A program made the translations under genes and the position numbers. The notes beneath the pieces were generated by a model that did not search any database, was not told the DNA's origin, and saw only the letters and a list, made by a program, of their open reading frames with translations. Below are positions 53,111-60,054 of a stretch of DNA of 64,000 bases, piece after piece (position 1 is the stretch's first letter; each line of letters opens with the position of its first letter). The DNA is from Polyangiaceae bacterium (lineage in GTDB: Bacteria; Myxococcota_A; Polyangia; Polyangiales; Polyangiaceae), in the NCBI GenBank assembly GCA_020846005.1, contig JADLEQ010000028.1, forward strand, positions 1 to 64,000, in the 5' to 3' direction.

Positions 53111-53788
53111 TCAGTGGTGCTTCAGCCGAGTCACACCCGGGTGCGTCGGATCCCCTGGCTCGTGCCGCGGGTTGTCGCTCTCGAACGAGCCGTCCCGGCC
53201 CGGGATGCTCATCAGCAGGTCCTTCTCGTAGATGAACTGCTCGCGCGAGTCGTACGGCGCCGGGTGCATGCCCGTATCCATCCGGATGGCGTCACACGGG
53301 CACGCCTCCACGCAGAACCCACAGAAGACGCAGCGGATCTCGTCGATGACGAAGCGGGCGGGGAAGCGCTCGTACCCGCGGCGCGCGTCCCCCTCCGGGT
53401 ACTCCGCGGGCTCGATGTGGATGCACTGCGCGGGGCAGGCGGTCGAGCAGCACAGGCACGCGACGCAGCGCGGGGAGCCGTCCACGCGGTGCGTGAGCCG
53501 ATGGACCCCGCGATAGCGCTCCGGGTAGGGGCGCTTCTGCTCTGGGTACGAGAGGGTGTTGATCCCGTCGTCGATCGCCTCGAGCACCGGGTCGTTCCGC
53601 TGCCCGAGGGCCAGCTCCTTCGTGTTCACGAAGAAGTGCTTCATCGTGAGGCCGAGGCCCTCGAGGATGGTGGGCACGTAGCTCTGCACCGCAGCCGTGC
53701 GCTCGGGGCGGCGGACCGGGGCGCCCACGACCTTGCGTGGGCCAAGCGGAGCGCTGGAGGACCGAGGCTCTTGGGGGGCGCGCGTCAT
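53111..53788 (-). CDS. nuoI: NADH-quinone oxidoreductase subunit I (NuoI)
   Basis: 225 residues from ATG 53788 with GAGGAT upstream. Two [4Fe-4S] motifs are intact: CVACLCCSTACPAQCI and CVFCGFCVEACPCDAI, passing electrons through the peripheral arm of complex I. Last nuo gene in the cluster; gatB follows instead of nuoJ. Confidence 0.94.
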   Translation of the reverse strand: MTRAPQEPRSSSAPLGPRKVVGAPVRRPERTAAVQSYVPTILEGLGLTMKHFFVNTKELALGQRNDPVLEAIDDGINTLSYPEQKRPYPERYRGVHRLTHRVDGSPRCVACLCCSTACPAQCIHIEPAEYPEGDARRGYERFPARFVIDEIRCVFCGFCVEACPCDAIRMDTGMHPAPYDSREQFIYEKDLLMSIPGRDGSFESDNPRHEPGDPTHPGVTRLKHH

Positions 53789-53802
53789 GTCGAGATCCTC
53801 AC

Positions 53803-55581
53803 TCAAGCCTGCATGGTTGCGCTGCGCGTACCGCCACGGGATGCCGCGTAGCGGGCCGCCGAGGTCTCCAGGAACCGGCGCTTGCGGGCCGGCGACAGCA
53901 GCAACCGGAAGAAGGCGATGGCGCCGACGAGGCCGAGCGCCGCGACGAGGGCGTGGGTCGCGTCGCCGAGCGTCCTCAGCGCCGACTGGACGGTGCCGCT
54001 CGCCTGCTGGAGCGCGAGCACCACGAGCGCCGTCACCAGGATGTTGAGCAGCGACGCCGGCAGCAGCTTGCGCCAGCCGAGCTGCATGAGCTGATCGTAA
54101 CGGAAGCGCGGCAGCGTCCAGCGGATCGTGAGCTGGACCCAGCACATGCCGACAACCTTGAGCACGAACCCGAGGAACCCGAGCAGGATGACGACCGCGT
54201 GGGGCAGCGGCTGACTGAACAGCACGCTGCCGCCCACGGCCACGTGCAGCCCCGCGCGGTCGAGGAACGGGACGTGCCAGCCGCCGAGGAACAGCACGAC
54301 CACGAGCGCGCTGGCGGTCACGATGGCGACGTACTCCGCGAAGAAGAACATCGCGAACTTCATCCCCGAGTACTCGGTGTAGTACCCGGCCACGATCTCG
54401 CTCTCACCCTCCGGCATGTCGAACGGGATGCGCTTCGACTCGGCGATGGCCGCGGTGAGGAAGAGCACGAAGGCGAAGGGCTGCACGAAGATCCCCCACC
54501 CGTGCTCGACCTGCCAGCGGACCATCTCGTCGAGCCGGACGGTGCCGTAGATCATGATGCAGCCGACGATCGTCAGCCCGAGCGTGACCTCGTAGCTCAC
54601 CATCTGGCTCGCGGCGCGGAGGCCGCCGAGGAGGCTGAACTTGTTGTTGCTCGCCCACCCCGCGAGCGCCGCGCCGACGATGCCGGTGCCCGCGAGCGCG
54701 AAGAAGTAGAGGATGCCGACGTTCAGGTCGAGCGCCTGGAGCTTCACCGCGCCCTCGCTGCAGACTCCGTCTCGCGGCACGTAGGCGGCGAGGCGACCGA
54801 GGTCGAGGGTGTCGTTCGCGCCGACGCCGAAGCAGAGGGTGTCGCCGAAGGGGACCACCGCCATGACGACCAGCGCCGGGAAGAGCGAGATCATCGGCGC
54901 CAACCCGTGGAGGAACTTGTCCGCGTTGGGGGGGACGAAATCCTCCTTGAAGACGCTCTTCAGGCCGTCGGCGGCGGGGTGGAGGAGCCCCGCCACGCGG
55001 AGCCCGACCGTGTCGCCGCGCAGGTGCACGATCGTGTAGACCGCGCCGCCGAGCACCGCGCCGGCCAGGAGGAACGCCCCCGCGCCGTAGCCGAAGTCGC
55101 GCAGCGTCCGCCCGATCTCCGTCCCGCGGAGCGATAGCCCGAGGAGCGCGGTGACGCCGTGCGCCGCGAACCCGAGGTAGACGAACTTGCGGGGATCGCC
55201 GGCGGACGCCACCCAGGCATCGAACGAGCTCCGCACGCCTCGCGTCCGCACCGCCCCGCCGATCCCGAGGAGCGTGAGCCAGCCGACGAGGATGAAGAGC
55301 TGGCTCAGCACCACCGCCCGCGCCGTGCGGCCGCCCGCGTCCGGAGGCGCGACGAGCTGCAGGGCGATGACGGCGCCAGCCACGAGCACGGCGGGCGCGC
55401 CGACCAGCGCCTTCACGACGTGGGCCGGGAGGAACGCCACCGCGCGGTTCGGCCCGATCGAGTCCTGGATCACGGCGCGCTGCCGGCGATCGGCCCAGGT
55501 GAGCAGGCCCGCGATGTTCAGCCCCAGCATCACCACGACGGTGAACGCTTTGAGCAGCGCGAGCAGGATGAGCGTTCCCAT
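53803..55581 (-). CDS. nuoH: NADH-quinone oxidoreductase subunit H (NuoH) with large insertion
   Basis: 592 residues, against about 320-420 for typical NuoH. The conserved loop starts TWADRRQRAVIQDSIGPNRA (about 28-47) and resumes VGLRVAGLLHPAADGLKSVF (about 192-211), which in the family are directly joined. Residues about 48-191 are inserted, with roughly four predicted helices (about 50-78, 88-110, 131-152, 164-187). The remainder, including FKEDFVPPNADKFL, MVSYEVTLGLTIVG and ESKRIPFDMPEGESEI, is normal. It forms the quinone-site/proton channel junction of complex I. Overlaps nuoG by one base. Confidence 0.88.
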   Translation of the reverse strand: MGTLILLALLKAFTVVVMLGLNIAGLLTWADRRQRAVIQDSIGPNRAVAFLPAHVVKALVGAPAVLVAGAVIALQLVAPPDAGGRTARAVVLSQLFILVGWLTLLGIGGAVRTRGVRSSFDAWVASAGDPRKFVYLGFAAHGVTALLGLSLRGTEIGRTLRDFGYGAGAFLLAGAVLGGAVYTIVHLRGDTVGLRVAGLLHPAADGLKSVFKEDFVPPNADKFLHGLAPMISLFPALVVMAVVPFGDTLCFGVGANDTLDLGRLAAYVPRDGVCSEGAVKLQALDLNVGILYFFALAGTGIVGAALAGWASNNKFSLLGGLRAASQMVSYEVTLGLTIVGCIMIYGTVRLDEMVRWQVEHGWGIFVQPFAFVLFLTAAIAESKRIPFDMPEGESEIVAGYYTEYSGMKFAMFFFAEYVAIVTASALVVVLFLGGWHVPFLDRAGLHVAVGGSVLFSQPLPHAVVILLGFLGFVLKVVGMCWVQLTIRWTLPRFRYDQLMQLGWRKLLPASLLNILVTALVVLALQQASGTVQSALRTLGDATHALVAALGLVGAIAFFRLLLSPARKRRFLETSAARYAASRGGTRSATMQA

Positions 55582-57182
55582 CAGCGGGCCTCCAACGCCG
55601 GGGCGTCGGCGACGATGGCGCCGGCCTCGTTGTCCATGGCGCGCCGCACGTCCGCGAGCCTCCGCCAGTTCATCGCGTGACCGAGGCCACGGCCCACGGC
55701 CGCCACCACGCGCCAGGCGGGGTGGGCGTCTCCCTGGATCCCGATGGCCTTCTCGCTCCGCTGCGCGAGACCTGCGGCGTTCACGAACGTGCCCTCGCTC
55801 TCCGCCCAGCTCGCGATGGGGAGCACCACGCCCGCGGCGCCGACCAACGGCCCCTGCCAGGCGGCGAGCGCAATCAGCTGCTCGGCGGTCTCCAGGCAGC
55901 CCGCGAGGGCCGGATCCCCGAGCTCCGCGCCCAGCGCGAGCACATGCGTCACCTTGCCGGATTCGATGTCCGCCGCCAGCTCGGCCGGCGCGCGAGGGTC
56001 GAGCGTGGAGGCGACCGCGCGGGCGCCTGCGGCGTTCGGGTTGCGATCTTCGTGCCGGAGGACGCCGTCCGCCGCCCCGCCTGCGCGCCCGGCGAGGTAC
56101 AGGTTCCCCGTGCCGATCCAGCGCCGCGCGAGCTCGACCATCGCGAAGTTGTCCTCGTTCGAGCACTGGGCGGACAGCACGACGCCCATCCGCTCCGGCG
56201 CGACGCCCCTCAATCGCTTTGCCGCCTCGAGCACCGCCGGATCGAGCTCGCTCGGCTGGCCGTCGACGTACGCCTCGAGGACCCTACCCTCGTGGACGCG
56301 CCGGTAGTCCAGCATGCCCTCATCGCACATCCACCACCGGTTGACGGCCGCGTTCTCGCGCGGCCGATGGCGGAACACCGTGTGGGAGCGCGGATCGTAG
56401 TCGAGCCAGGCGTTGCAGCCCGTCGCGCAGCCCTGGCAGACCGCCGCGGCGCTCCGGAGGAACCACACGCGCGCCTTGAAGCGGAAATCGACGGCCGTGA
56501 GCGCGCCCACCGGGCACACGTACTCGGTCATCAACGTGTAGCCGTGATCCAGCTCGCGCCCCGGCGCGACCACGATCTCGTTGAGGTTCCCGCGCTCGCG
56601 CACGCTCAGCACTGGGTCCTTGGCCACCTCGGCGCTGAACCGCACGCAGCGCGTGCAGATGATGCAGCGCTCTGCGTCGTAGACGATCGTGGGCCCGAAG
56701 CGCACGGCCTTCGGCTTGTGCACCGGCTCGTCGCGCATGCGCTTCGACTTGGCCTGGTGCTCGAGCCAGTAGTCCTGCAGGCGGCACTCGCCCGCCTGGT
56801 CGCAGATCGGGCAGTCGACGGGGTGGTTCAGCAGGAGGAGCTCCTGCACCGCGCTCCGCGCCTTCGTGACGTGCTCGCTCGTCGCCGAGCGGACCTCCAT
56901 CCCCTCCGCCACCGGCTGCTGGCACCCGGGGACGAGCTTCGGCTTGCGCTCCTTGACGTACTCACCGAGCGCCGGGTCCCACCGCAGCACGTCCAGCATG
57001 AGCGCGCCGCGCCCCGGGGGAGGAAGGAGCTCGACCAGACACATGCGGCAGTTCGCAGCGACGCTGAGCCCGGGGTGCCAGCAGTAGTGCGGGACGTCGA
57101 CCCCGGCGCGGTGCGCGGCGCGGAGCACGGTGTCCCCCGGCTCGAAGGGGATGTCCTGGTCGTCGAGCTTGAACGTCGGCAT
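55581..57182 (-). CDS. nuoG: NADH-quinone oxidoreductase subunit G-like (NuoG), short form
   Basis: 533 residues, shorter than the ~900 of E. coli NuoG. The N-terminal [2Fe-2S] domain has C34, C45, C48 and C87; the His-Cys motif HPVDCPICDQAGEC and the [4Fe-4S] CIICTRCVRF...CPVGAL follow. A further cluster, CQGCATGCN with the later C in WWMCDEG, is N7/molybdopterin-like. The molybdopterin-fold domain is truncated. It carries electrons within the peripheral arm. NuoE and NuoF, which normally precede it, are absent: only 44 bp separate it from nuoD. Confidence 0.88.
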   Translation of the reverse strand: MPTFKLDDQDIPFEPGDTVLRAAHRAGVDVPHYCWHPGLSVAANCRMCLVELLPPPGRGALMLDVLRWDPALGEYVKERKPKLVPGCQQPVAEGMEVRSATSEHVTKARSAVQELLLLNHPVDCPICDQAGECRLQDYWLEHQAKSKRMRDEPVHKPKAVRFGPTIVYDAERCIICTRCVRFSAEVAKDPVLSVRERGNLNEIVVAPGRELDHGYTLMTEYVCPVGALTAVDFRFKARVWFLRSAAAVCQGCATGCNAWLDYDPRSHTVFRHRPRENAAVNRWWMCDEGMLDYRRVHEGRVLEAYVDGQPSELDPAVLEAAKRLRGVAPERMGVVLSAQCSNEDNFAMVELARRWIGTGNLYLAGRAGGAADGVLRHEDRNPNAAGARAVASTLDPRAPAELAADIESGKVTHVLALGAELGDPALAGCLETAEQLIALAAWQGPLVGAAGVVLPIASWAESEGTFVNAAGLAQRSEKAIGIQGDAHPAWRVVAAVGRGLGHAMNWRRLADVRRAMDNEAGAIVADAPALEAR

Positions 57183-59089: not shown

Positions 59090-59698
59090 TCAGGGGCGGG
59101 AGACGCGGGAGCGCCGCAGCTGGACGAGGCCGGCCGTCGGGTCGACGGCGGGATCCTGGCGCGGCTTGACGACACCCGGCCGCGAGTCGCCTCGTTGGAT
59201 CTTGTCCTGGAGGAGCAGGAGGCCATCGAGGACGCCCTCGGGCCGGGGCGGGCAGCCCGGCACGTAGATGTCGCACGGGACGATCTTGTCGATCCCCGGG
59301 ACGCAGGCGTAGTTGTCGTAGAACCCGCCGACGCTGGCGCACGTGCCGAAGGCGAGCACCCACTTCGGGTCGGCCATCTGCTCGTAGATGCGCTTGAGCA
59401 CCGGCGCCTGGCGCTGCGTGATCGTGCCGACGACCCACAGCAGATCGGCCTGGCGCGGCGAGAAGCGCGGCGCCTCGGAGCCGAACCTGGAGAAGTCGTA
59501 GCGAGGCCCCGAGACGCTCATGAACTCCATCCCGCAGCACGCGGTGACGAAGGGGTACATGAAGAGCGAGTACTTCTGCGCCCAATGCAGGAGGTCCTCG
59601 AAGCGCGTCGTCGCGAAGCCCGGGCCCTGCCCCGTCTCGATGGCTCGCTCGAGGGCCGCGGTGTCGCCCCCCGCGCCGCCGCGCTTCAGCTCTCCCAC
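59090..59698 (-). CDS. nuoB: NADH-quinone oxidoreductase subunit B (NuoB)
   Basis: 202 residues from GTG 59698, which lies inside the end of nuoA (13-bp overlap) with GGGAG upstream. The N2 cluster ligands are C54 and C55 (TACCGMEFM), C120 (FGTCASVGG) and C149 (VPGCPPRPEG). It carries the terminal iron-sulfur cluster that reduces quinone. Confidence 0.95.
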   Translation of the reverse strand: MGELKRGGAGGDTAALERAIETGQGPGFATTRFEDLLHWAQKYSLFMYPFVTACCGMEFMSVSGPRYDFSRFGSEAPRFSPRQADLLWVVGTITQRQAPVLKRIYEQMADPKWVLAFGTCASVGGFYDNYACVPGIDKIVPCDIYVPGCPPRPEGVLDGLLLLQDKIQRGDSRPGVVKPRQDPAVDPTAGLVQLRRSRVSRP

Positions 59699-60054
59699 TC
59701 GAGCGCTCCCTTCTTCCAGCAGTAGGCGAGCGCCACCAAGAGCGCGGCGATGAACGCCAGCATGGTGAGGAAGCCCGTCCACCCGAGGCCCTTGAAGAGC
59801 ACGGCCCACGGGTAGATGAACACCGCCTCGATGTCGAAGACCACGAACAGGATGGCCGTGAGGTAGAACTTCACGCTCATCCGGACCCCGCGCGCGCCAT
59901 CGGAGTCGTTGCCGCACTCGTAGGGCTGGAGCTTCTCCGGGTTCGGGTTCTTCGGCCCGAGGTAGTGCCCTCCGAGCCAGAAGACCGCCACGATCGCCGC
60001 GCCGACGGCGAAGACGAGGAACATCGGCAGGTAGACTTGGACCAGCTCGGACAC
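59686..60054 (-). CDS. nuoA: NADH-quinone oxidoreductase subunit A (NuoA)
   Basis: 122 residues with three membrane helices (about 8-30, 62-82, 88-108) and the conserved loop NPNPEKLQPYECGND...KFYLTAILFVVFDIEAVF split across it. Start is a GTG at 60054. It is the first gene of nuoABCD-G-H-I; a TTGACA/TTGACT-containing region lies just upstream. Confidence 0.94.
   Translation of the reverse strand: MSELVQVYLPMFLVFAVGAAIVAVFWLGGHYLGPKNPNPEKLQPYECGNDSDGARGVRMSVKFYLTAILFVVFDIEAVFIYPWAVLFKGLGWTGFLTMLAFIAALLVALAYCWKKGALEWES

Follow-up and report, generated by a model that had tools for sequence, protein, structure and literature searches.

Few parts of complex I are as strongly conserved as the loop that connects the first transmembrane helix (TM1) of its subunit NuoH to the first amphipathic helix (AH1). 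This loop lines the entrance for quinone and is a site of human disease mutations. In the E. coli complex, NuoH TMH1 and part of the loop following it are disordered (PMC8357420). In mitochondria, transmembrane (TM) accessory subunits surround ND1 at the heel of the complex, with NDUFA1 filling the groove between TMH1 and TMH7 and NDUFA13 standing where Thermus Nqo8 has its ninth TM helix (PMC8762328); the Euglena subunit NDUEG6 has a helix next to the quinone entrance that is ordered only during turnover (PMC10884005). Here we describe a NuoH from a Polyangiaceae bacterium that shares with the NuoH/ND1/Nqo8/NdhA family (PF00146) its fold, the quinone-site loop motifs, the acidic TM5-6 loop and the operon context, but that has about 148 extra residues, with four predicted TM helices, between TM1 and AH1, where the ordinary spacing is 11 residues. 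We found no account of a four-helix NuoH insert in the open-access literature, and for that literature the statement of a first-pass annotation of this DNA that no example has been described stands.

The window, the whole stretch of 64,000 nucleotides analyzed here, lies on contig C28 (JADLEQ010000028.1) of a 5.7 Mb genome that is 99% complete. It carries nuoA-B-C-D-G-H-I on the minus strand with gatB next, and nuoE-F-J-K-L-M-N are found on contig C35 (genes read from the sequence, with nuoF and nuoJ identified by Pfam); thus, a complete complex I is encoded. In the list of open reading frames nuoH is a single open frame running from 55581 to 53803, whose ATG start shares one base with the nuoG stop. 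The local nuo gene order is shared by two relatives, of which one carries the insert and the other does not. The genes to which we refer below are:

59686..60054, minus strand: nuoA, the first nuo gene of the A-B-C-D-G-H-I cluster (open reading frame list)
55581..57182, minus strand: nuoG, overlapping the nuoH start by one base (open reading frame list; identified by reading the sequence)
53803..55581, minus strand: nuoH, complex I subunit NuoH/ND1, 592 aa (PF00146 at 330 bits against a cut-off of 27; fold match to solved NuoH/ND1)
53111..53805, minus strand: nuoI, downstream of nuoH and followed by gatB, its 5′ limit approximate (open reading frame list; same order in relatives)

The identity of the protein is clear from several lines of evidence. 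The PF00146 match covers residues 196-518, and the NCBIfam model NF004741 matches residues 192-522 at 290.4 bits, which is under its naming cut-off of 305; the protein is filed neither under this nor under other NuoH equivalog models, being below the annotation threshold. Solved NuoH/ND1/NdhA chains superpose on the NuoH model with Z about 32-38 and rmsd 2.1-4.2 over 295-336 residues, aligning on either flank of the insert. TM1 and the quinone-site motif DRRQ..IQDSIGPNR lie at residues 31-46, and NuoH resumes with GLLHPAADGLKSVFKEDF at 197. In the columns of the NuoH alignment the quinone-site loop motifs, namely GPNR, the amphipathic helix and the PFDMPEGESE-EYSG loop, are kept, with the exception of S41. 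At this position (55459..55461) Ser replaces a nearly invariant Arg (QDR.GPN); the residue is Cys in one other NuoH (L014) and Arg in a genome of the same genus (G001). The matching residue of E. coli NuoH, R46, sits just ahead of the insertion site and is needed for activity, the R46A variant showing under 5% (PMC9696053).

The first-pass annotation claimed an insertion of about 145 residues after IQDSIGPNRA, and alignment with ordinary NuoH confirms it at residues 48-191. GPNR ends at residue 46 and GLLHPAADG starts at 197, leaving about 150 residues between them as opposed to about 11 in ordinary NuoH. Measured from GP to the AH1 core, the spacing is 158 residues; it is 11 in some 50 NuoH from Bacteroidota and elsewhere, a baseline obtained by a one-protein scan of genome contigs that returned mostly Bacteroidota NuoH. 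The accompanying claim that GLLHP normally follows GPNR directly needs a correction: the local baseline is a 20-residue hairpin, so that the junction is not quite direct even in relatives lacking the insert. The insert is in frame and free of stops. Recent foreign DNA as its source is unsupported, since its GC3 is about equal to that of the core. The features within the gene, in the direction of translation, are:

55009..55440, minus strand: inserted block, NuoH residues 48-191 (alignment with ordinary and 20-residue-loop NuoH)
55426..55437, minus strand: first β strand of the clamp, residues 49-52, ending in invariant P52 (AlphaFold2 DSSP)
55351..55425, minus strand: predicted insert helix A, residues 53-77, with invariant P63 (AlphaFold2, pLDDT about 90 or more over most of it)
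55240..55338, minus strand: predicted insert helix B, residues 82-114, with invariant W101 (AlphaFold2; conservation)
55207..55227, minus strand: short helix, residues 119-125, in the K/R-rich B-C loop, predicted cytosolic (AlphaFold2; loop charge)
55132..55191, minus strand: predicted insert helix C, residues 131-150, with invariant R131, G137 and H141 (AlphaFold2; conservation in 37 distinct sequences)
55027..55119, minus strand: predicted insert helix D, residues 155-185 (AlphaFold2)
55000..55011, minus strand: second β strand of the clamp, residues 191-194 (AlphaFold2)
54949..54999, minus strand: resumed NuoH with the first amphipathic helix (GLLHPAADGLKSVF), residues 195-211 (alignment to NuoH structures, AlphaFold2)
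53896..53997, minus strand: predicted extra C-terminal TM helix, residues 529-562, outside the insert (AlphaFold2)

The insert is modeled by AlphaFold2 with a pLDDT mostly of about 90 or more within full NuoH and of 92.2 alone, and is predicted to consist of two short strands bearing four TM helices. The roughly four membrane helices proposed at first pass are thus recovered in two AlphaFold2 runs, and the loop charges agree with them: the B-C loop has on average 4.8 K+R and the remaining loops 1.2 and 0.9, as the positive-inside rule predicts for an insert whose two ends and B-C loop lie in the cytosol. As the end of TM1 and the start of AH1 are both cytosolic, the four added helices would stand in the membrane next to TM1. 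The location at the quinone entrance, likewise asserted at first pass, follows from the homologous position of the insert between TM1 and AH1.

Searches for relatives of the insert itself returned no match among PDB sequences at E≤10, and its fold found nothing convincing (Foldseek E of 0.5 or worse; best VIA-align Z of 6.6 at rmsd 8.6). Pfam recovered no coherent family among the inserts, only scattered weak matches in one to three members; on the strength of these searches a fusion with a known domain was rejected. Profile searches found no standalone paralog or second copy in the same genome. An internal duplication (helices A-B versus C-D) and a derivation by copying from the core helices of NuoH or from NuoA, NuoJ or NuoK were likewise rejected for want of profile similarity.

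Eight residues (R46, P52, P63, W101, G115, R131, G137 and H141) are invariant in all 37 distinct inserts, with A47 and P130, just ahead of helix C, present in 36. Sequences are on average 32% identical over the insert and 64% over the core. The closest pair shows few non-synonymous changes, with a dN/dS of about 0.04 across the insert and 0.03 across the core. In more distant pairs, in which dS is near saturation, the insert is less constrained than the core, and in most pairs it evolves two to three times faster. Judged from these substitution patterns, the insert is under purifying selection. The original reading of a structural elaboration and not decay is accordingly supported: the protein retains the NuoH fold and a highly conserved core, and its insert, with invariant residues of its own, is under purifying selection.

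A profile (A1) built from 24 inserts matches 64 of the 108 Polyangiaceae genomes, distributed over 30 of 48 genera, so that many soil myxobacteria of this family carry it. When the insert region alone was searched across a phylum-wide sample of 282 Myxococcota genomes, 11 matches were obtained, all from Polyangiaceae and none from outside the family; a protein search retrieved Polyangiaceae and Polyangia bacterium sequences with the same insert. Relatives without the insert have a 20-residue spacing in the form of a hairpin (e.g., NRAVLKIGKFELRVAGLLH), and a phylum-wide search with this form gave near-continuous matches outside Polyangiales among the matches listed. The hairpin in these relatives places the insert at its tip, with the AlphaFold2 strands 49-52 and 191-194 flanking the helices. 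The Polyangiales 20-residue-hairpin NuoH is the same protein, with the same operon and flanking strands, but with a hairpin tip devoid of membrane helices.

In a tree of the NuoH core, 13 Polyangiaceae with the 20-residue hairpin form a supported group, and testing does not reject an arrangement with all carriers in one clade (p-AU 0.57); the tree is compatible with one gain followed by losses as well as with several gains. The Polyangiaceae genome G018 has a 77-residue insert and adjoins the four-helix carrier L189 in the tree (support 94/86), which suggests that its two middle helices were lost, leaving a two-helix remnant. Other Polyangiales families have inserts of 88-111 residues, plus one of 197, at the same NuoH site. 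The 88-111-residue forms share the [LMV]P motif after the first strand and hydrophobic stretches, and their length and hydrophobicity suggest two helices. However, they are shorter than the four-helix insert and show no detectable homology with it beyond the flanks; only the flanking strand and GLLHP align, and homology between them was rejected. The presence of such apparently unrelated inserts marks this site as an insertion hotspot. The longest loop seen, that of 197 residues (L035 of G058, Polyangiales), has a near relative (L028) in which it measures 102.

The insert is therewith well established as a feature of the known protein NuoH; what we offer for its role is a proposal. We posit, with about even odds of being right, that it is an accessory membrane module peculiar to this lineage and built into NuoH, sitting at the complex I heel and anchoring TM1 and AH1 around the quinone entrance. 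The 20-residue hairpin would have come first, with the four-helix domain arising later at its tip. Starting and finishing on the cytosolic side, the insert would embed its bundle in the heel membrane next to TM1 and to the site where quinone enters. There it would most likely serve as an anchor for AH1 and for TM1, which is otherwise mobile, shape the surroundings of the entrance for lipid and quinone, and present the conserved basic loop (G115, P130-R131) to the peripheral arm. It would then be an in-cis counterpart of the eukaryotic heel subunits NDUFA1, NDUFA3 and NDUFA13 or of Euglena NDUEG6. These likewise add TM helices around ND1 close to where quinone enters, a likeness to the insert that is positional and inferred, but they are separate polypeptides, whereas the helices described here lie inside the NuoH chain. 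No sequence homology was found between them, with neither a PDB sequence match at E≤10 nor a fold match at E≤0.001. By analogy, the insert may work like the heel accessory subunits without belonging to them. Thermus Nqo8 also has a helix added within the ND1 subunit, its ninth TM helix (PMC8762328); however, this is a C-terminal addition, comparable to the predicted extra helix at the C-terminus of the present NuoH, while the insert is in the quinone-site loop. Against a heel module stand the faster evolution of the insert relative to the core in most pairs, the related genera that manage without it, and the other families' inserts, whose lack of detectable homology allows for several origins without a common function.

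The main rival to the heel-module reading is constructive neutral elaboration, whereby the hairpin tip tolerates hydrophobic hairpins whose helices are kept by packing on NuoH with no functional gain. Such a history fits the several families whose inserts of 88-197 residues at this site look unrelated, the absence of the insert from a well supported sister clade, its faster evolution relative to the core and a gene order that is unchanged without it. However, neutrality does not readily account for eight residues that are invariant across many genera, a mid-membrane His among them, or for the low dN/dS of the closest pair, and we hold it to be possible but doubtful. Somewhat less probable, in our estimate, is that the insert is a new functional membrane domain in the quinone-entry loop, a gate or a quinone/lipid-binding module built on H141, W101, P63 and R131 that alters quinone access, with the same loop used independently in sister families.

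We think it improbable that the insert is a functional site in which the mid-membrane H141, with W101 and P63, binds quinone, lipid or a cofactor or helps to transfer protons where quinone enters. All three residues are invariant and well inside predicted helices, and from its conservation such a role for H141 is possible; but there is neither a cofactor motif nor a fold relative, a single invariant His within the insert precludes a bis-His haem, and the residues for quinone and protons are present in the core independently of the insert. Slightly more improbable still is that the insert serves for docking a partner, be it from a respiratory supercomplex or a membrane protein particular to this lineage: the inferred position at the membrane end of the complex and the conserved basic cytosolic loop would suit it, but in a comparison of the nuo clusters a carrier has gained no partner gene relative to a non-carrier. 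An assembly or frameshift artefact, raised at first pass, has a negligible probability given the 24 aligned homologous inserts from independent genomes and the matches in 64 of the family's genomes, which together give in-frame inserts in dozens of genomes, some of them finished; the lack of stops, the core-like GC3 and the few non-synonymous changes in the closest pair also exclude it.

Returning to the heel module, the empty site, the shortened form and the apparently unrelated inserts of relatives constitute a natural experiment on the attachment of accessory domains at the complex I heel, and the same set of forms bears on whether the surroundings tune TM1 mobility and quinone access. Carriers have finished genomes, including single contigs of 11,388,132 and 16,040,666 bases, which makes the role of the insert experimentally accessible. 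If the insert were a new functional domain and the same loop were reused in sister families, which we regard as unlikely, the loop would be an evolvable entry point for in-cis complex I accessory domains.

Several further peculiarities were noted. In genome G019 the insert-bearing NuoH is split across contigs C520 and C411 (L059 and L060), the assembly break falling inside the insert. The NuoH of the window has a long periplasmic TM2-TM3 loop (residues 250-284) with two cysteines, C250 and C274; examples without the insert also show a long NuoH C-terminal part and cysteines in the TM2-TM3 loop. The same genome encodes an ordinary 324-aa NuoH with the 11-residue spacing in a second complex I-like cluster on contig C43, as well as a weaker, more distant NuoH homolog on contig C3. 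By match counts, which phylogeny confounds, a second ordinary NuoH seems common in insert carriers (roughly half) and rare in non-carriers. Other membrane subunits of the same complex I are also enlarged: NuoM has 622 aa, and NuoL (L195:5560-8313, minus strand, contig C35), at 917 aa, has a His-rich loop and a tail of about 150 residues past its last TM helix.
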